Program-made: the position numbers and the translations under genes
Notes under the pieces: model-generated
Databases searched by the model: none
What the model saw: only the letters and a program-made list of their open reading frames with translations
What the model was told of the DNA's origin: nothing
NCBI RefSeq assembly: GCF_014268655.2
Contig: NZ_JABWQX020000006.1
Span: 1 to 64,000, forward strand
DNA: 64,000 nucleotides
Direction of reading: 5' to 3'
Source: Pseudomonas marvdashtae
GTDB taxonomy: Bacteria > Pseudomonadota > Gammaproteobacteria > Pseudomonadales > Pseudomonadaceae
In this document: positions 122 to 48,480 of the stretch, one piece after another
Position numbering within the stretch: position 1 is the stretch's first letter
Layout of the letters: each line of letters begins with the position of its first letter

Positions 122-264
122 GACGGGCATCGAGGCAAGCTGAAAGAACCCTTCGGGAGCAGACTCGCGGTCACAATTGGAGCGGAGTACGACAAGAAAC
201 CAGGTCGGCTTTAAGGCCGCCTCGCTTTTGCTTTTGATCTGCGGGCCCCGTTAACCACGCTGGC

Positions 265-470
265 CGAACGCAGGTATTGCGCAGTGGGCATCCCGGCATG
301 GATGCCGGGATAGCCGCGCTGGGTCATGGATGACCCTTCGCGGCGGCCCACGGAGCAATGCCTGCGTTCGGGCACGCCGAGCCTAGGCGAGGTGCCGAGT
401 GGTGGGGCAAGACCTTTTGGTTACTTTTGGGGCGTCTGCCAAAAGTGACACGCCGTAAGGGCGTAACCGC
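265..470. repeat. Dispersed Pseudomonas palindromic element with nested hairpins
   Basis: Arms 265-289 and 346-370 are inverted copies of each other with about four mismatches. They enclose two perfect hairpins: ATCCCGGCAT (290-299) with ATGCCGGGAT (302-311), and GGGTCA (321-326) with TGACCC (331-336). A further hairpin at 420-449 pairs GTTACTTTTGG with CCAAAAGTGAC, followed by a short stem around 451-465 (ACGCC/GGGCGT). This composite resembles intergenic repeats seen many times in fluorescent pseudomonads. It fills most of the 385-base spacer 122-506; no gene is seen there. It may also end the leftward tag operon transcript. Confidence 0.7.
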
Positions 471-31485: not shown

Positions 31486-34400
31486 ATGTCTGACGCACTC
31501 TGGGCCGCCCGACTGGGCGATGCGTTGAACCACACCTCGATGATGGCCGACATCCTCGGCGGCGTGCTGGAAGTGGCGGCGAACATTGCAATCACGGCCG
31601 TGGCGACGGCTGCCGTAGTGGCGGCCACGGGTATTACCGTGGTCACCGGCGGGCTGGGTTGCTTCGTCCTCGGCTTGGTGGTGGGCACGATTGTCGGCCT
31701 GGCCATGAGCAAGACCGGGGCCGACAAGGGCCTGAGTAATATATGCGAGGGCATCGGCAACGCCCTCTTTCCGCCCACGGTGCAGGCCAACATTCTTACC
31801 GGCTCCACCGACACCCTCACCAACAACATCCCCGCCGCTCGCGCCGCCGGAGCGATTGAGTCCCACGTTGCCCCCGCCGGTACGGAGCTGGAGGCCCCCG
31901 AGCCTGAAGAAGAACCCAGCTACCTGGACATGGCCGGGAATTTTTTCTCGCAGATGTGGCGCCCCACCGTTGCCTCGCCCGCCCCTGGCGCCGTGCCCAA
32001 GCCGGAAGACTTGGTCATCTGCATGAAGCACCCGCCGATGCCACCGCAGTTCATGGCCGAAGGCTCGGACAAAGTCACCATCAACAGCCAGCCCGCCGTG
32101 CGCAGCGGTGACCGCAGCACCTGCGATGCGACGGTGGTGTCGTCCGGGCTGATTTCCCCTGACGTGACCATTGGCGGTGGTTCGGTGGTGGTGCGCGAGA
32201 TTCGCAGCGGCAAGACGCCGGGCGTCGGCCTGGCGGTCACCGCGCTGCTGATGCTCAAGGGCGGCAAAGGCAAGTTCTTCAGCAAGCTGCCGTGCATGTT
32301 GGTGGGCGGCGCGGTGTCCATGGCCGCCAGCAGCGCGGCGAACGCGGCCGCCAATGCGGCCATGGGTTCGTCGAACCCGGTGCACGCCGCCACCGGCGCC
32401 AAAGTGCTGGGCGGTGACGAGGAGCTGGATTTCGTCTTGCCCGGCATCCTGCCCATCGATTGGCAGCGCGTGTACAACAGCCGCGACGAACGCCGCGACA
32501 GTTTGTTCGGCGCCGGCTGGAGCGTCGCCTACGAAGTCCAAGTGGAAATCCTGCCCCACCCCGAGGGCGGCGAAACCCTGATCTATACCGACGAACAGGG
32601 CAGGCCCATCGACATGGGCTCCATCCCCTTGGGCGGCGCGGTGTTTAGCGCCGGCGAAGGCCTGGCCGTGCGCCGTCATGTGAACGGGCAACTGTTGATC
32701 GAGAGCGAAGACGGCCTTTACCGTTTGTTCGAACCTTCGCCAGCCAACCCATCACATTTGCGGCTGAGCCAACTGGGCGACCGCAACGACAACCGCATCC
32801 ACCTCGACTACGACGACGCCGGACGCCTGGTGCGACTGCGCGACACCTTCGACCTGGTGCAGGTCGAGCTGATCCGCGAAGGCGAACGCGTCGCCCACAT
32901 CGAGCGCCTCTACCCCGACCAATCCCGCGAAGTGCTGGTCAGCTACGCCTACGACGCGGCGAACACCCTCGCCGAAGTGAGCGACGCCACCGGCCAGGTG
33001 CAACGGCGCTTCAGCTACGACGCCGGGCAACGAATGGTCGAGCACCAGTTGCCCACCGGCCTGCATTGCTTTTACGAATGGGCCTTGATCGACGACCAGG
33101 AATGGCGCGTGGTCCGGCACTGGACCGACGAAGGCGACGCCTACCAGTTCGACTATGACCTCAAGGCTGGCATCACCCGCATCAGCGACAGCCTGCAACG
33201 GGTCAGCATTCGGTACTGGAACAGCCAGCACCAGATCACCCAGTACAGCGACAACCTCGGCCAGACCTGGTTGTTCGAATGGAACGATGAGCGCCAGTTG
33301 CTCAGCGCCACCGATCCACAGGGCGGCCAGTATCAATTCAGCTACGACGACGCCGGCAACCTGATCAGCGAAACCGACCCGTTGGGCCGCAGCGAATCCA
33401 CCCTCTGGCTCGAACACTGGGCCCTGCCGCTGGTGGACACCGACGCCGCCGGCCAAAGCTGGAAGTACCGCTACGATCAACGCGGCAACTGCACGGCGCA
33501 AACCAACCCGCTGGGCCACATCACCCGCTACCGCTACGACGCCCACGGCCAGGTCGTGGAAATCATCGACGCCACCGGCAAAAGCAAGAAGCTACGCTGG
33601 AACCCGTTCGGCCAATTGGTGGAACACGTGGACTGCTCGGGTTATCCGACGCGTTTCAGTTATGACCAGCGGGGTTATTTACAGGTCATTACCGATCCGC
33701 TTGGCGAACGGATAACCTTCACCTACGACACCATGGGCAGAATCCTCAGCCGCCAGTTGCCCGATGGTCGTATCGAGCATTTTCAGCGCAATCTCTGCGG
33801 GCAACTGACGGCGCATACCAATCCGTCTGGCCATACCACCCATTATCAGTACAGCCCTCGCGGCCGAATTCACCAGCGAACGGATGCCCACGGTCGCAAC
33901 GTGCAGTTCAGCTATGACCACTACGCACGACTGCAATCGCTGACCAACGAGAACGGCGAGCGTTATCGGTTTGCCTGGGATGCTAATGATCGTCTGGTCG
34001 AGCAGACGGATCTTGATGGGAGCGCCCATCGTTATGACTACGATGTACTCAACAGCATTACCCGCGTCACCTCGCTGCCTGCGCAATATGGTGACGGGCT
34101 CGGTGTCGTCCCGCAAACACCGCAAGCACCCATTATTCATTGTCTGGAGCGTGACGCCGTGGGGCGTCTGGTTGCCAAGATTACAGATGATGGCCGCACC
34201 GAATACACCTACGATCCGCTGGACCGACTCATCGCAATTACGTTCAGGGATACCCAGGGCCACGAACAGAAGCTGGCTTACCTCTATGACGCCGTGGGCC
34301 AGCCACTCGAAGAGCAAAGCTCAGCCGGCAGCTTGAAACATCGCTACGACGAACTCGGCAATCTCATCCAGACCCAACTGGCTGATGGCCGCTGGATCAA

Positions 34401-35964
34401 CCGCCTGTATTACGGCAGCGGCCACCTGCACCAGATCAACCTCGACGGCCAGGTCGTCTGCGACTTCGAGCGTGATCGGTTGCATCGTGAGGTCCTTCGC
34501 ACCCAGGGTCAGATCAATACCAGGACTGAATATGATCGTGGAGGGCGCTTGCGTTCACGCGTTCGACGTTCAAACAGCCAGCCACGGTCATTGCCTGGAA
34601 CGGGGCAAACACATTTCGAATTCGACCCTGGCGACAACCTGATAAGCCGCCTCGAACAAAAAAAAGGTGCTACGTCTCGACAACTGTTTCACTACGACGC
34701 CACCGATCGAATCATTGCCAGCCAAAACATCGCTCAAGGGCAGCATGAAGCTTTTGCCTATGATGCGGCAGCCAACCTGTTGGACGGCCCGCAACCCAGT
34801 GCCGGCCTGGTCGTGCATAACAAATTATTGACCTACCGAGACAAACGTTATCGGTATGACGGCTTCGGTCGACTGATCGAAAAACGCAGTGCTAGCCGAG
34901 GGGTTCAACGATTCAAGTACGACGCTGAAAGCAGAGTGATCGAAGTACGAAACCAGCATGCCGCCCGCGAAACCATCGTCACGATGAGCTATGACCCGTT
35001 AGGTCGTCGCATTGAAAAAACCGAGCGAGACAGCCATGGCTATCCATTAGGCACCACTCGCTTTGTCTGGGACGGTTTGCAACTGGTCCAGGAACACCGC
35101 AATAGCCAGACCAGCCTGTACCTCTACGAAGATGAAAGCTATGAGCCGCTGGCACGCGTAGATGGCATTGGGGCCCTGCAAAAGGTCAGGTACTACCACA
35201 ACGACCCCAACGGGTTGCCGCAAGAATTGACCGAACAGGACGGGCGCCGCGTCTGGCAGGCCAGCTATTACGTTTGGGGTAATACCGCCGAAGAAATTCG
35301 CGAGCCTTACTACATCGAAGAACAGAACCTGAGGTTCCTGGGACAATACCTGGACCGGGAAACCGGGTTGCACTACAACACGTTCAGATTTTACGACCCT
35401 GACATCGGTCGGTTTATTACGCCGGACCCCATAGGACTCGCTGGGGGCCTGAATCTCTATCAGTATGGCCCTAACCCAATGGGCTGGAGTGACGCATGGG
35501 GGCTGGCGGGCAGTCCGACCACAGCGACCCACATCACCTACTTGGGCGTCGATAAGGCGACAGGAAAACCCTACGTAGGCTATGCCAGCATGCAAGGCAA
35601 GCAGGTAGGTTCAGACGTGCTGAACTATCGCTATGGATCAAACTTTGACCGCTTTGGTGGCCAGGCACCTCAAGTCCTGCATACCGCCTACGGACAGGAC
35701 GGCAAGGACACTACCCGAGGACTCGAGCAACGCGTTTATGAAGGCTTGGGTGGAAAAGACGGCACCGCCAACGCGCAGAACCCAGTCGGCAAAGGCAATG
35801 CCCGAAGGGACAAATACCTGGCGGCGGCGGATAAACATCTGTCCAAGACACCGGCAGGCAAGGCGCTGGATAAACGTATCAAAGCGGCAAATAAAGCCAT
35901 AGCCAAAGCCGCCGCCAAAGGGGCCAGCAAAGGTCGAGGAGCACGGGCAGGCCGGTGCTCGTGA
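31486..35964 (+). CDS. PAAR-Rhs polymorphic toxin with GIY-YIG-like nuclease tip
   Basis: 1492 residues. Hydrophobic segments at about 28-75 and 246-292 flank a PAAR-like region (about 113-240). The Rhs/YD repeat cage covers about 305-1310, and the conserved end DPIGLAGGLNLYQYGPNP with NPMGWSDAWGL marks the autocleavage region near 1315-1342. The unique tip (about 1346-1492) has ITY at 1350-1352 and YVG at 1363-1365, ten residues apart. Arg1382/Arg1389, Glu1414 in RGLEQ and Asn1432 in NAQNP complete a GIY-YIG/URI nuclease pattern. A Lys/Ala-rich tail (about 1455-1485) could bind nucleic acid. Base composition becomes AT-richer in parts after about 33.7 kb, a sign of tip exchange. Nuclease activity is inferred. 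Confidence 0.9.
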   Translation: MSDALWAARLGDALNHTSMMADILGGVLEVAANIAITAVATAAVVAATGITVVTGGLGCFVLGLVVGTIVGLAMSKTGADKGLSNICEGIGNALFPPTVQANILTGSTDTLTNNIPAARAAGAIESHVAPAGTELEAPEPEEEPSYLDMAGNFFSQMWRPTVASPAPGAVPKPEDLVICMKHPPMPPQFMAEGSDKVTINSQPAVRSGDRSTCDATVVSSGLISPDVTIGGGSVVVREIRSGKTPGVGLAVTALLMLKGGKGKFFSKLPCMLVGGAVSMAASSAANAAANAAMGSSNPVHAATGAKVLGGDEELDFVLPGILPIDWQRVYNSRDERRDSLFGAGWSVAYEVQVEILPHPEGGETLIYTDEQGRPIDMGSIPLGGAVFSAGEGLAVRRHVNGQLLIESEDGLYRLFEPSPANPSHLRLSQLGDRNDNRIHLDYDDAGRLVRLRDTFDLVQVELIREGERVAHIERLYPDQSREVLVSYAYDAANTLAEVSDATGQVQRRFSYDAGQRMVEHQLPTGLHCFYEWALIDDQEWRVVRHWTDEGDAYQFDYDLKAGITRISDSLQRVSIRYWNSQHQITQYSDNLGQTWLFEWNDERQLLSATDPQGGQYQFSYDDAGNLISETDPLGRSESTLWLEHWALPLVDTDAAGQSWKYRYDQRGNCTAQTNPLGHITRYRYDAHGQVVEIIDATGKSKKLRWNPFGQLVEHVDCSGYPTRFSYDQRGYLQVITDPLGERITFTYDTMGRILSRQLPDGRIEHFQRNLCGQLTAHTNPSGHTTHYQYSPRGRIHQRTDAHGRNVQFSYDHYARLQSLTNENGERYRFAWDANDRLVEQTDLDGSAHRYDYDVLNSITRVTSLPAQYGDGLGVVPQTPQAPIIHCLERDAVGRLVAKITDDGRTEYTYDPLDRLIAITFRDTQGHEQKLAYLYDAVGQPLEEQSSAGSLKHRYDELGNLIQTQLADGRWINRLYYGSGHLHQINLDGQVVCDFERDRLHREVLRTQGQINTRTEYDRGGRLRSRVRRSNSQPRSLPGTGQTHFEFDPGDNLISRLEQKKGATSRQLFHYDATDRIIASQNIAQGQHEAFAYDAAANLLDGPQPSAGLVVHNKLLTYRDKRYRYDGFGRLIEKRSASRGVQRFKYDAESRVIEVRNQHAARETIVTMSYDPLGRRIEKTERDSHGYPLGTTRFVWDGLQLVQEHRNSQTSLYLYEDESYEPLARVDGIGALQKVRYYHNDPNGLPQELTEQDGRRVWQASYYVWGNTAEEIREPYYIEEQNLRFLGQYLDRETGLHYNTFRFYDPDIGRFITPDPIGLAGGLNLYQYGPNPMGWSDAWGLAGSPTTATHITYLGVDKATGKPYVGYASMQGKQVGSDVLNYRYGSNFDRFGGQAPQVLHTAYGQDGKDTTRGLEQRVYEGLGGKDGTANAQNPVGKGNARRDKYLAAADKHLSKTPAGKALDKRIKAANKAIAKAAAKGASKGRGARAGRCS

Positions 35965-35997
35965 GCATCATCAATATATTCGGAATGGAGTGAACCC

Positions 35998-36585
35998 ATG
36001 GCCAAGCGCATCACCTTGAAGGAAGGCGATCTAGTCAGCCTCAAACTGCGAGACGATTTATACACCTTGGGTCAAATGACCAAGCATTCAGTCATGCGTT
36101 TTTACGACGTGAAAAGCGAGGATGGCACCTGGCCCGACCTCGTACTGGATAACAGCATGATTTTATTCAGCGGCTTCGTAGGGAAAGTGATTACCCAACG
36201 GCTGGCGGTGGAAAAACTAACCTGCACAACCTCCTTGATCCTGTCAGACCATGAACGTTATTGGCTCAGGCCACACGTCAACTTCGAAGGTGGTTTCCCG
36301 TTTCGGGGCGCCGACCTGATCGATATCGGCACAGATTGCGCTGCCGATTACAGCTTGGTGCCCGCACTGAAAGAAGATCTGACGCTTTCGAAAAACCGCG
36401 ACGTCATTGAGAAATACGAGCTCACCAATATGTGGGGGGATGAAGACTTGAGCGACAGGTTGTGCCGCTATTTCGATACTGGCGTTAACCGCGACGATCT
36501 GAAGTTCGAAGTCTTCCCAGGGCTTTGGACGGACCGTGAGAGCCTAAGGCCGTTAACCCGCCGCTTACCTGTGCCGCTTCGATAG
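35998..36585 (+). CDS. Probable immunity protein for the Rhs toxin (Imm26-like)
   Basis: 195 residues, no signal peptide, so cytoplasmic, where a delivered nuclease would act. The N terminus (ITLKEGDLVSLKLRDDLYTLGQM) resembles the opening of Imm26-type immunity proteins, which accompany many nuclease polymorphic toxins. It begins 33 bases after the rhs stop with GGAATGGAG upstream of its ATG. The gene is visibly less GC-rich than the T6SS core, as usual for toxin-immunity cassettes. Family assignment is by eye. Confidence 0.65.
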   Translation: MAKRITLKEGDLVSLKLRDDLYTLGQMTKHSVMRFYDVKSEDGTWPDLVLDNSMILFSGFVGKVITQRLAVEKLTCTTSLILSDHERYWLRPHVNFEGGFPFRGADLIDIGTDCAADYSLVPALKEDLTLSKNRDVIEKYELTNMWGDEDLSDRLCRYFDTGVNRDDLKFEVFPGLWTDRESLRPLTRRLPVPLR

Positions 36586-36622
36586 ACCGGCGGCGTGAGC
36601 GGGCTTTAAGGCATTCAAGACC

Positions 36623-37288
36623 ATGATCTTAAAAGAAATCTACCTGTACCCCGACTTGGGCGAATTCAGCGACGAAATTATTCATCCGTTTCGCGACCAA
36701 AGCCGCTCGATCTGCAATTTTCTTGAGCGCCACCTGAGTGCAGAAAAATTCGAAACGCCGAACTTCAAGAAAATCTGCTTTGTCGGCACGCGCCAAGCCG
36801 TCGACGAGCCCTATGTAAACTCCAGCGGCGCGCTCATCGTCAATGTCAGCCTGGATACCGAACAGTATAAAAAATGCACATCGGTCAACGAGCTCAATGA
36901 GCTCTTTATACAACTGTTGCTGGAAGGCCTGGAAAAATGCCGCCCACACATTGCCTTGCCCCTTGATTTGCTGAAAAACGCAATGGATGAGTTCCGCCGC
37001 AACCACTATAAAAACGAGTGGACTTTCAAGCAGAAAAAAATAAAAGGGTCTGACTATGTCTGCGCCCTGGAGTGCCAGTTAACCATCGACTGCTTCCTCA
37101 TGAACCTTAAGGTCTTGAGGAAAGACACAGCAGTACTCGATAAAGAAATTCTGCGAACCGCACCCGACGAAATAGCGTTCGGTCCGTACCTCAAAGACCT
37201 CAAGGAAGAAGGCGGCAGAATCAAGGTCATCGACAAATCGGGCGTGGCCTTCTACACCACCACGGTTTCTAGCTTGGACAAGCTTTGA
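36623..37288 (+). CDS. Uncharacterised protein, possible second immunity or cassette gene
   Basis: 221 residues, not recognised. No signal peptide or membrane segment is seen. It is rich in Lys, Glu and Leu, with predicted helices (NELNELFIQLLLEGLEKC, LPLDLLKNAMDEF). It follows the Imm26-like gene by 37 bases, in the same orientation and with similar lower GC, and ends where a REP-bearing spacer starts. That makes it part of the Rhs cassette. It could be a second immunity gene, or an immunity gene left behind by an earlier toxin tip. Confidence 0.65.
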   Translation: MILKEIYLYPDLGEFSDEIIHPFRDQSRSICNFLERHLSAEKFETPNFKKICFVGTRQAVDEPYVNSSGALIVNVSLDTEQYKKCTSVNELNELFIQLLLEGLEKCRPHIALPLDLLKNAMDEFRRNHYKNEWTFKQKKIKGSDYVCALECQLTIDCFLMNLKVLRKDTAVLDKEILRTAPDEIAFGPYLKDLKEEGGRIKVIDKSGVAFYTTTVSSLDKL

Positions 37289-37397: not shown

Positions 37398-37604
37398 AAA
37401 AAGGCCGGCGCATTCCTACAGAAAAACCGCTGCGCCATTGAGCGAGAGCACGCTTCCTCGCCCCAAATCCTAGGCATTACGAAGGCTTGTTTATTCTCCC
37501 TCCGCAACGCCTCCACCAAGCTACGCATCCTTGCGCCATTGCCTACAACTACGCCAGAATCCGCTGGCTTGTGCGCCTTGCCCCCGGGGCCTATCGTCTT
37601 CCTG

Positions 37605-37827
37605 CCACTGCCCACCAGTGGTCGGGTTTAGTAGCCCGAGGTTTTCCGCAAGATGCACGAGCTATCCACTCAGGCAGGTGTTCCAATTCCTGTCCTTGAT
37701 GGTGGCTGTGCGCAGGGCGCTTCGGCGCGCCGGCAATGCTGGAATCCCCGGTCTACTAACCTGCGTACAGCCGCCACCCTTCTTTTAGTAGGGAAAGGGT
37801 CGCGGCCCAACTCAAGGATTCCAGCTT
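37605..37827 (+). promoter_or_regulatory. Structured 5' leader with alternative pairings in front of the DUF6124-like gene
   Basis: Two hairpins open it: CCACTG/CAGTGG (37605-37621) and TCGGG/CCCGA (37622-37639) with loop TTTAGTAG. A long imperfect stem pairs 37701-37716 with 37760-37778 and encloses a GCGC-TTCG-GCGC tetraloop hairpin (37717-37728). CTACTAA (37753-37759) can pair with TTAGTAG at 37628-37634 or at 37785-37791, but not both. GCTGGAATCC (37738-37747) is a perfect complement of GGATTCCAGC (37816-37825), which overlaps the AAGGA Shine-Dalgarno (37814-37818) of the next gene. This is what a translation-controlling leader would look like; no known riboswitch class is recognised. Confidence 0.65.
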
Positions 37828-38184
37828 ATGTTCAAAATAACTCCAAACCCTCCGGAAACGGACAACTCCGCGCAAACCAAATCCAAAGCCAAAAAGCACG
37901 ACGAAACCACCAAACGCGTCTTGGATCACTACCTGCTACCCAAACCGGAAAAGTCCGAAGATGCATCCAAACCGGACCCGCTCTTCACCGTGTCAAAAAA
38001 AGCCGACAACGAATGCCTGCTCGCCAACCTCAGCGAAAACCTGGCATCCGCCGACGCGATGATCAGCAACCTGGCCTTCGACCTGGAAGGCCCCCGCCGC
38101 CACATTGCCCTCGGCATTCAGCAACTGATCGAACTGAGTTCAATGCTGGCCAGCCGTGTGCTGGATAACGTCGACCCACGCTAA
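37828..38184 (+). CDS. Small DUF6124-like Pseudomonas protein
   Basis: 118 residues. MFKITPNPPETD at the start and the C-terminal SENLASADAMISNLAFDLEGPRRHIALGIQQLIELS block match a small protein family abundant in fluorescent pseudomonads, of unknown function. The N-terminal half is Lys/Pro-rich and probably disordered; the C-terminal half should form a helical pair. No export signal. AAGGA lies nine bases before the ATG and can be masked by the leader described separately. It converges on the HAD phosphatase gene, 11 bases away. Confidence 0.8.
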   Translation: MFKITPNPPETDNSAQTKSKAKKHDETTKRVLDHYLLPKPEKSEDASKPDPLFTVSKKADNECLLANLSENLASADAMISNLAFDLEGPRRHIALGIQQLIELSSMLASRVLDNVDPR

Positions 38185-46901: not shown

Positions 46902-48431
46902 ATGCGTGCTGCTCAATTAAAAGCTGTTCTGCCACGGGAGCTCTTGGCTTCCGTGGTTGTGTTTCTGGTGGCGCTGCCCTTGTGCATGGGCATCGCTATC
47001 GCGTCCGGGCTGCCGCCCGCCAAAGGTCTGATCACCGGCATCATCGGTGGACTGGTGGTCGGTTTCCTGGCCGGGTCGAAGCTGCAAGTCAGCGGTCCAG
47101 CCGCCGGCCTGGCGGTGTTGGTCTTCGAGCTGGTGCGCCAGCATGGCGTGGCAATGCTCGGGCCGATCCTGCTGCTGGCCGGTCTTCTGCAGCTATTGGC
47201 CGGACGCTTTCGCCTCGGTTGCTGGTTCCGGGTCACCGCGCCTGCGGTGGTGTACGGCATGCTGGCCGGTATCGGCGTGCTGATCATTTTGTCCCAGGTC
47301 CATGTGATGCTCGACGCAGCGCCCAAGCCCTCGGGACTGGATAACCTGGCGGCGTTCCCCGCGGCAGTGGCCCAGGCTTTGCCGTCGTTCGGCTGGCAGG
47401 CGGGTCTGCTCGGTCTTTCGACAATTGCCGTGATGTGGCTGTGGGAAAAATTTCGTCCGCACAGTTTGCGCTTCGTTCCCGGCGCCCTGCTCGGCGTCGG
47501 CCTGGCAACGGTTGCGAGCCTGTTGCTGGCGTTGCAGGTCAAGCGCGTGGAAGTCCCAGAAAATATGGCCGAAGCCATCGACTGGCTGCGCCCGGCCGAT
47601 CTGCTGAACCTGGCCGACCCGTCGGTACTGATCGCGGCGTTCGCCGTCGCTTTCATCGCCAGCGCCGAAACCTTGCTCTCGGCCGCCGCCGTGGACCGAA
47701 TGCACAGCGGCGAGCGCGCCGATTTCGACCGCGAACTGTCCGCCCAAGGTATCGGCAACATGCTCTGTGGCTTGCTCGGCGCCCTGCCGATGACGGGTGT
47801 GATTGTGCGCAGTTCCGCCAACGTGCAGGCCGGCGCAACCACGCGGATGTCGACGATCTTCCACGGCCTGTGGCTGCTGCTCTTCGTGCTCCTGTTGTCC
47901 AGCGTGCTGCAAAGCATTCCGGTGGCGAGCCTGGCGGGCGTGTTGGTGTACACCGGTTTCAAACTGGTGGACCTCAAGGCGTTTCGCAGTCTGGGCCGTT
48001 ATGGGCGAATGCCGATGTTTACCTACGCCGCGACGGCGCTGGCAATCATCTTCACCGACCTGCTGACCGGCGTGCTGATCGGTTTCGGCCTGACCTTGGC
48101 GAAACTGGCGTGGAAAGCCTCGCGCCTGAAGATCAGCCTGATCGATCTGCCCCAGGACGGTGAGATGGAATTGCGCCTGGTGGGCGCGGCAACCTTCCTG
48201 AAGGTACCCGCGCTGACCCAAGTGCTGAATGCCGTACCGGAAGGCGCGACCGTGCATGTGCCGCTCAACAACCTGAGCTACATCGACCACTCGTGCCTGG
48301 AATTGCTGGAGGAATGGGGCCGGGCGAATGCCAGCAAGGGTTCGAAGCTGTTGATTGAATCGCGCGGACTCAAGCGCCGGCTGGAAGGACGATTGCGTAC
48401 AACCGTTGGGGTGGGCGCAACGGCTTCCTGA
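46902..48431 (+). CDS. SulP-family anion transporter with STAS domain
   Basis: 509 residues from the ATG at 46902, preceded by GGGAGAG; in-frame ATGs at 46827 and 46872 would add 10-25 polar residues. About ten to twelve membrane segments are visible, starting LLASVVVFLVALPLCMGIAIASGLPPAKGLITGIIGG, the SulP signature region (quoted here in part). A C-terminal STAS-like domain (about 430-509; VHVPLNNLSYIDHSCLELL) follows. SulP proteins move sulfate or bicarbonate; the adjacent carbonic anhydrase favours bicarbonate. Confidence 0.92.
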   Translation: MRAAQLKAVLPRELLASVVVFLVALPLCMGIAIASGLPPAKGLITGIIGGLVVGFLAGSKLQVSGPAAGLAVLVFELVRQHGVAMLGPILLLAGLLQLLAGRFRLGCWFRVTAPAVVYGMLAGIGVLIILSQVHVMLDAAPKPSGLDNLAAFPAAVAQALPSFGWQAGLLGLSTIAVMWLWEKFRPHSLRFVPGALLGVGLATVASLLLALQVKRVEVPENMAEAIDWLRPADLLNLADPSVLIAAFAVAFIASAETLLSAAAVDRMHSGERADFDRELSAQGIGNMLCGLLGALPMTGVIVRSSANVQAGATTRMSTIFHGLWLLLFVLLLSSVLQSIPVASLAGVLVYTGFKLVDLKAFRSLGRYGRMPMFTYAATALAIIFTDLLTGVLIGFGLTLAKLAWKASRLKISLIDLPQDGEMELRLVGAATFLKVPALTQVLNAVPEGATVHVPLNNLSYIDHSCLELLEEWGRANASKGSKLLIESRGLKRRLEGRLRTTVGVGATAS

Positions 48432-48442
48432 CATCTCCATCA

Positions 48443-48480
48443 AGAACCCTGGAAGCGAGCTGGCTCGCTTCCAGGGTTCT
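48443..48480. terminator. Bidirectional hairpin between convergent genes
   Basis: Eighteen-base perfect arms, 48443-48460 and 48463-48480, beginning AGAACCCTGGAAGC, separated only by TG. It lies between the sulP stop and the stop of the leftward gene at 48496, the usual place for a shared terminator. A proper T run is lacking on both sides. Confidence 0.65.

Follow-up and report, generated by a model that had tools for sequence, protein, structure and literature searches.

A C4 antisense RNA with its a1/b1 target precedes a DUF6124 gene in Pseudomonas marvdashtae, one of 31 C4 copies with distinct loops in the genome

C4 is a classic phage immunity RNA that has been studied in the single-copy operons of phages P1 and P7, originally, it is said, by Citron and Schuster in 1990 and by Hartmann in 1995. 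In the phage P1 record (AF234172) the RNA lies at 48337–48422, and the annotated order is two c4 promoters, a1, b1, C4, a2 directly after it, b2, icd and ant1. The a′ site of phage P1 (CTGTCAA) precedes the 3′ arm of the long stem as a single strand, b′ is in the loop of helix P3, and b2 (48452–48459) is found just before icd (48470). According to the available text of the sources, C4 is known experimentally from phages P1 and P7 (PMC5320573, PMC12197685); in phage P1 it is needed to block ant expression (PMC8198154, PMC12197685), is processed (PMC5320573) and is listed as trans-acting (PMC12197685). The c4 and c4-a1b1 motifs were predicted in 2010 by comparative genomics in proteobacteria and phages (PMC2864571, available portion), and the accessible part of PMC5320573 describes 21 C4-like sequences, the Group 1 sRNAs of Acinetobacter baumannii AB5075, for which the reads suggest processing by RNase P. 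Repeats of about the size of the leader considered here, R200 (320 bp) and R26 (352 bp), appear for P. fluorescens in the available part of PMC2718517.

The window analyzed here is a stretch of 64,000 nucleotides from P. marvdashtae, and all features of the locus are on its + strand. The initial annotation had placed at 37605–37827 a leader RNA with two mutually exclusive pairing switches and had recognized no known class. The latter statement has to be withdrawn, because Rfam assigns two families to the locus, both over the gathering score (E-values 2.9e-11 and 2.8e-9): the C4 antisense RNA (RF01695) at 37695–37781, matched over its full length with 68.7 bits (gathering 45), and its a1/b1 target, c4-a1b1 (RF03163), at 37591–37642 with 48.8 bits (gathering 46.7). 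Judged by its sequence, the leader is thus a member of the C4 family. A hairpin at 37605–37621 and the a1 hairpin at 37622–37639 lie inside the c4-a1b1 match; a1 itself is the TTAGTAG at 37628–37634. The identical a2 (37785–37791) stands directly 3′ of C4, and both are complementary to a′, the CTACTAA at 37753–37759. The second contact joins b′ (GCTGGAATCC, 37738–37747) to its 10-base complement b2 (GGATTCCAGC, 37816–37825), which overlaps the AAGGA ribosome site (37814–37818) before the ATG at 37828. The predicted target is the gene starting there (37828–38184), which encodes a 118-aa DUF6124 protein (PF19619, E 2.5e-28). A possible, uncertain b1 at 37636–37650 matches b′ imperfectly, and its duplex with b′ is weaker than that of b2 (−15.6 vs −20.3 kcal/mol). 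Each of CTACTAA, GCTGGAATCC and GGATTCCAGC is unique on the + strand of the window, and TTAGTAG has no occurrence there beyond the two in the leader. All motifs of the proposed switches were where they had been placed, and the contacts are real; they are the a′/a1/a2 and b′/b2 contacts annotated in phage P1, after whose record the letters a and b are used. Far from this leader, at 252–384 (+), the window also contains a TwoAYGGAY RNA (RF01731; 51.7 bits, gathering 43).

The predicted fold of the 87-nt C4 core (−48.8 kcal/mol, z −4.87) was matched in stability by none of 200 shuffled sequences. It has the three-helix layout of C4: a 17-bp long stem, P1, at 37700–37716/37760–37776 (the initial annotation had the stem right but its span as 37701–37716/37760–37778), a P2 hairpin at 37717–37728 with the UUCG tetraloop already noted, and a third hairpin, P3, at 37729–37752, with b′ in its loop. 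The CTACTAA of a′ makes up exactly the seven unpaired bases between P3 and the 3′ arm of the long stem. The 236-nt leader was likewise more stable than its shuffles (−97.6 kcal/mol, z −4.20; 0/200 equally stable), and its minimum-energy structure contained the helix masking the Shine–Dalgarno sequence and both of the 5′ hairpins expected from the initial annotation. The long stem was absent from it, so by energy alone the stem and the masking helix are alternatives. Conservation of the core was evident among the 31 C4 copies of the genome, in which 16 of the 22 predicted pairs, mainly in helices P1 and P2, showed compensatory changes, and the GG at the base of the long stem was kept in all 31. 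The pairings are conserved and covary in paralogues and relatives, the opposite of what the initial annotation had named as grounds for refuting it.

A box of 29 bp (37546–37574), common to 21 other C4 units of the genome, lies upstream of the leader; it ends with the −35-like TTGTGC (37569–37574), and 17 nt further the −10-like TATCGT (37592–37597) follows. When up to three mismatches were allowed (two at most were seen), the box had 23 matches in the genome, 22 of them preceding a C4 and one beyond the C5 unit, and the reversed box used as a control had none. The pattern TTGTGC-N16-18-TAnnnT was found 5′ of 23 of the 31 C4s of this genome, and a near form of it upstream of all 75 parsed units from named Pseudomonas species; a scan with a generic sigma-70 consensus found no promoter. 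The initial annotation had considered transcription from downstream of 37790 as contrary to its reading; a conserved promoter-like stretch was identified instead 5′ of the whole leader, and a start near 37603–37606 is expected from its position. Given these common promoter elements, transcription is probably similar across most units, with silencing acting on each one separately.

Our reading, to which we give a probability of about 0.9, is that the leader represents a C4 operon of the type known from phage P1, silencing DUF6124, and that the 31 RNAs of the genome each mostly silence their own gene. One promoter upstream of 37605 would produce a transcript with a1, C4, a2/b2 and the DUF6124 gene. 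C4, acting either after release from the transcript, as in phage P1, or still within it, would pair a′ with a2 and the P3 loop b′ with b2, cover the ribosome site and keep DUF6124 translation low; with its own b′ loop, each C4 would mostly silence its own gene. Antisense repression of translation is the most likely mechanism, and C4 processing, repression and action in trans are proposed here by analogy with phage P1.

In the P. marvdashtae genome (5.9 Mb, 18 contigs), 31 C4s scored over the cut-off, and DUF6124 was matched 34 times. By position, 26 of the C4s precede a DUF6124 match; four stand before another ORF or none that could be parsed, and the last lies where its contig ends. Such a C4 is missing from eight of the DUF6124 matches, one of which is likewise at a contig edge. 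In a survey of 119 genomes of the genus, counting P. marvdashtae, C4 over the cut-off was present in 109 and absent from 10, and DUF6124 over the cut-off was present in 94; 33 C4 candidates were scored per genome, so copy numbers in this survey are lower bounds. Two congeners scored more fully had 38 (G009) and 47 (G062) C4s. Across the class, with 18 candidates scored per genome, C4 was found in 12 of 229 genomes, the other 11 besides P. marvdashtae having 1 to 4 copies, and in 14 control genomes none was found. One contig of G009 (L241 1365–1735, contig C21) carries three C4s in a row, a small array with a common TTGACCAAC before the 3′ arm and different loops; against 30 G009 leaders the best match of these C4 repeats was 7 nt, nothing out of the ordinary.

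The distance from C4 to its gene was nearly constant in named Pseudomonas species (P. brassicacearum, P. corrugata, P. mediterranea, P. kilonensis and others): among the best 80 of 375 loci by similarity to the window protein, C4 ended 43–51 nt before the DUF6124 start in 78. A structured leader able to control access to the ribosome site, as had been proposed from the window, thus lies 5′ of DUF6124 genes in many pseudomonads. The two exceptions were L165, cut by a contig edge, and L142, in which C4 lies about 1.4 kb from the gene. In the latter (24–1501, P. mediterranea) an a2/b2-like stretch is left at the DUF6124 gene despite the distant C4. DUF6124 genes in L026, L027, L041 and L043 have no C4 nearby (L026 gave a weak 19.8-bit match with a custom model), and at some of these loci a hairpin on the 5′ side and repeats resembling b1/b2 persist, as a deletion of the RNA would leave them.

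Matching of each RNA to its own gene was analyzed separately for the two contacts. The 31 units of P. marvdashtae use ten different a′ 7-mers, and two random units have the same one in 10% of pairs. An exact own a1 was present in all 31 units and an exact own a2 in 28. Both were exact in 75/75 parsed named units (3/78 lost in parsing by the a′ pattern) and in 73 of 74 viral units (1/75 not parsed); a1 and a2 were exact in 25/25 and 23/25 units of G062, and in 21/26 and 19/26 units of G009. For these two genomes, parsing lost 5/30 and 4/30 units, and 17/47 and 8/38 C4s, respectively, were outside the pairing sets.

The b′ loop, the hypervariable address of the RNA, was distinct in 31/31 copies here, in 26/26 parsed copies of G009 and in 25/25 of G062. 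In the run analysis of b′ and b2 (identical loops merged, 106 to 61), the mean Watson–Crick run for the 31 units was 7.35 with the own b2 vs 4.19 with those of the other units. Runs of at least 7 were found in 21/31 own vs 13/930 cross combinations in P. marvdashtae, 17/26 vs 16/650 in G009, 18/25 vs 13/600 in G062, and, after merging 74 viral loops to 25 distinct ones, 18/25 vs 28/600 in the viral units. By run length, the own b2 was the best target in 25/31 units here, 15/26 in G009 and 19/25 in G062; a ranking by duplex energy put it first in only 19 of the 31. Cross runs reached 8–9 in P. marvdashtae and 11 in G009, and 10 of the 31 own runs were below 7, those of C1:3037804 and C1:2049452 being 4. 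The addresses are not fully private and pairing specificity is not absolute. For b1, the loops of all 31 units matched their own upstream regions better than those of the others (mean run 6.06 vs 4.74; 0/10000 permutations), and the energy test agreed (1/10000); the window unit taken alone ranked 16th of 31, not above chance.

The question of whether the C4 leaves its transcript brings in the other reading of the same contacts, a leader switch acting only in cis, in which a′/a2 and b′/b2 pair within one mRNA and gate translation. It agrees with the b′–b2 helix held in cis by the minimum-energy fold of the full leader and with targets within about 50 nt of C4 in adjacent units. It also fits the lack of trans targets among six DUF6124 leaders without C4, for which the 31 C4 loops gave best runs of 6–9 against a null of 5–9 (C1:4356815, with its start codon not located, and C6:2-79, at a contig edge, were left out). 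Such a switch would, however, leave paralogues no reason to differ in their loops, and they do differ. An example is the tandem pair C1:1161594 and C1:1163165: both code for the same protein of 121 aa (ORF nucleotide identity 0.986), their promoter, a1, a′ and a2 are near-identical and their C4 scaffold is largely the same, but the b1 region, b′ and b2 differ together. In pairs matched for ORF identity, a small sample of non-independent pairs from which 14/157 units without an ORF of 70 aa were dropped, the same loop was found within genomes in 0/5 pairs vs 23/41 between genomes at identity of at least 0.93 (p 0.049), in 0/23 vs 46/182 at 0.85 or more (Fisher p 0.003) and in 0/23 vs 12/204 at 0.80 to 0.85. 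The one pair within a genome with an identical loop (L138/L149) was below 0.80 identity or not comparable. Trans-acting free C4, with selection against crosstalk, would be expected to leave paralogues with different loops. The processing of C4 in phage P1 (PMC5320573) and its listing as trans-acting (PMC12197685), as given in the available text of these papers, also speak against a switch confined to cis, which we regard as unlikely, at roughly one chance in five.

Two further comparisons of loops were made. In a label-shuffle test, identical loops made up 1/1226 pairs within and 143/11020 between genomes (shuffle mean 15.45 in the species-group set), and this test was not counted as evidence, since a genome has each orthologue only once in any case. 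Among syntenic units, 11 of 26 pairs with both flanks alike had identical loops, too few for use and with tandem pairs mixed in.

It is very improbable that the C4 is prophage debris, a fossil without function. Individual units do look decayed: in C2:110370 the stretch separating C4 from a partial DUF6124 match is unlike that of the remaining units, and C3:5037 appears frameshifted. The window site also lacks C4 in relatives, none scoring over gathering in 20 stretches surrounding gph, which follows the window unit, and a custom C4 model (E up to 1) giving only one chance-level 13.5-bit match in 23 such stretches. Against this stand the perfect a1/a′/a2 and 10-nt b′/b2 pairing and the intact 118-aa frame at this locus, the compensatory changes described above, the conserved promoter box and spacing, and the window b′ loop itself, unchanged in eight named units, including L114 of P. 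brassicacearum with a 93%-identical homologue. The downstream flank of the window unit is present in L183 (P. frederiksbergensis) and its upstream flank in L120 (P. kilonensis).

Of the options offered by the initial annotation (riboswitch, thermosensor or leader controlled by an sRNA) the last fits, and a ligand riboswitch or RNA thermosensor controlling DUF6124, although compatible with the masking of the Shine–Dalgarno sequence and the stable multi-stem leader, was set aside as hardly credible because of the Rfam result, which gave a characterized antisense RNA family and no riboswitch family (only C4 and c4-a1b1 were over gathering), and of the hypervariable loop, since the part that pairs with the ribosome site is the least conserved, with 31 distinct versions in 31 copies, and forms a strong b′–b2 duplex.

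The genes found behind C4 in other genomes were not confined to DUF6124. With matches at E up to 0.01, the 42 ORFs parsed downstream of 46 C4s from other Pseudomonas and from gammaproteobacteria outside the genus (4/46 loci without a parsed ORF were left out) included 9 Bro-N, 5 DUF6124, 4 DUF3077, 2 CsrA, 1 Rha and 1 SymE. The target thus varies, given that 9 of the 42 match Bro-N, and C4 looks like a portable silencer of small regulatory proteins. For CsrA, which may connect C4 with an RNA-binding regulator, the best E-value was 0.00026, and L197 and L209 are the likely loci. C4s before Rha-, Bro-N- and SymE-looking genes were seen in L198, L203, L206, L207 and L062, the assignment of any single locus being a reading.

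DUF6124 and DUF3077 are related by profile alignment (probability 98.8, E 1e-16), including the N-terminal MxKxxPxPP; a third protein family behind C4 (A7) had no profile similarity to either. In the AlphaFold2 model of DUF6124 (mean pLDDT 77.3, pTM 0.50) the proline-rich N-terminus has low confidence, and the rest is made up of a single helix and a helical hairpin modelled with confidence; no relative was found in the PDB by sequence (best E 0.81). The MxKxxPxPP start (TPNPP or VPDPP), common to the two families and located before the low-confidence stretch, is perhaps a binding motif. A DUF3077 gene was hit in furfural-evolved P. putida, according to the available part of PMC9630843. The literature search, with subscription papers mostly outside its scope, returned no paper mentioning DUF6124 and only one in which DUF3077 occurs together with Pseudomonas.

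The C4–DUF6124 unit also occurs in predicted proviruses. IMG/VR contained 127 loci with DUF6124 relatives, and in 75 of the 80 examined a C4 lay 30–80 nt upstream; a fraction of the contigs could represent tailocins or flanking host DNA. In the viral contig L272 the unit is between a tail-fiber assembly gene and a tail sheath gene, and in L316 it is near tail genes, towards the contig end. DUF6124 had no match in the plasmid collection and was found in one record of the phage collection, at the record edge. In P. marvdashtae, genes near the units include Rhs/PAAR genes (the window, L023, L047), an Xre/RES pair (L034), MutS with an S24-type repressor (L044) and RF3 (L025). Just 5′ of the C4 unit of the window (31486–37288, +) a PAAR/RHS gene (1492 aa) is followed by two ORFs of 195 and 221 aa without a Pfam match.

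A more speculative proposal, in our estimate improbable, is that C4–DUF6124/DUF3077 units are address-coded cassettes shared with phages, of which a genome would retain almost each address a single time; a resident C4 would silence newcomers with the same address, and new addresses would be expressed on arrival. If so, the expression of a unit with a new address on entry would amount to zygotic induction, as in the heteroimmunity of P1 and P7; the loops would be a barcode of self and non-self, and the proteins effectors freed where the matching C4 is missing. In more immediate terms, three Pseudomonas genomes with 31, 38 and 47 copies of one scaffold and mostly distinct matched loops form a natural antisense–target library, in which one could test directly how specific the RNAs are, where crosstalk ends and how addresses turn over. 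The DUF6124/DUF3077 gene family now has a predicted regulator and a connection with prophages, and the existing Rfam models would let annotators mark C4–DUF6124 loci.

The C4 family itself was known already; its genus-wide amplification, with loops that are mostly private and matched to the genes next to them, was not found described, and a search for C4 in Pseudomonas as a multiplied set, judged mostly by titles and the beginnings of abstracts, found no description. The two motifs of the 2010 prediction are the same as those found here, and the available portion of PMC2864571 does not mention DUF6124, copy number or paralogue-specific loops. The sar RNA of phage P22 resembles C4 in being a small RNA of a phage and in acting on an antirepressor, whose translation it blocks by base-pairing to the mRNA, but it is another RNA, for which the available text of PMC12197685 describes neither the C4 fold nor paired a and b sites. 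The Group 1 sRNAs of A. baumannii are likewise multi-copy and chromosomal with one variable specificity loop; in the accessible part of PMC5320573 that loop is called a′, whereas by the phage P1 record b′ varies here, and no adjacent matched targets are named, whereas most C4s of P. marvdashtae have their own b2 on the next gene. The counterpart in phage P1 is the c4-icd-ant operon: it matches RF01695 and RF03163 as the window does, with near-equal C4 scores (68.8 vs 68.7 bits), has the same order of promoter, a1, C4, a2, b2 and next gene, and has its a′, 7 nt of unpaired sequence, placed just ahead of the long-stem 3′ arm and its b′ in the loop of P3. They differ in the target, which is outside the definition of the RNA family and is the icd-ant antirepressor operon in phage P1 and DUF6124 in the window, and in setting, since phage P1 has one copy, whereas the window C4 is chromosomal and one of 31 in its genome, with a shared 29-bp upstream box.
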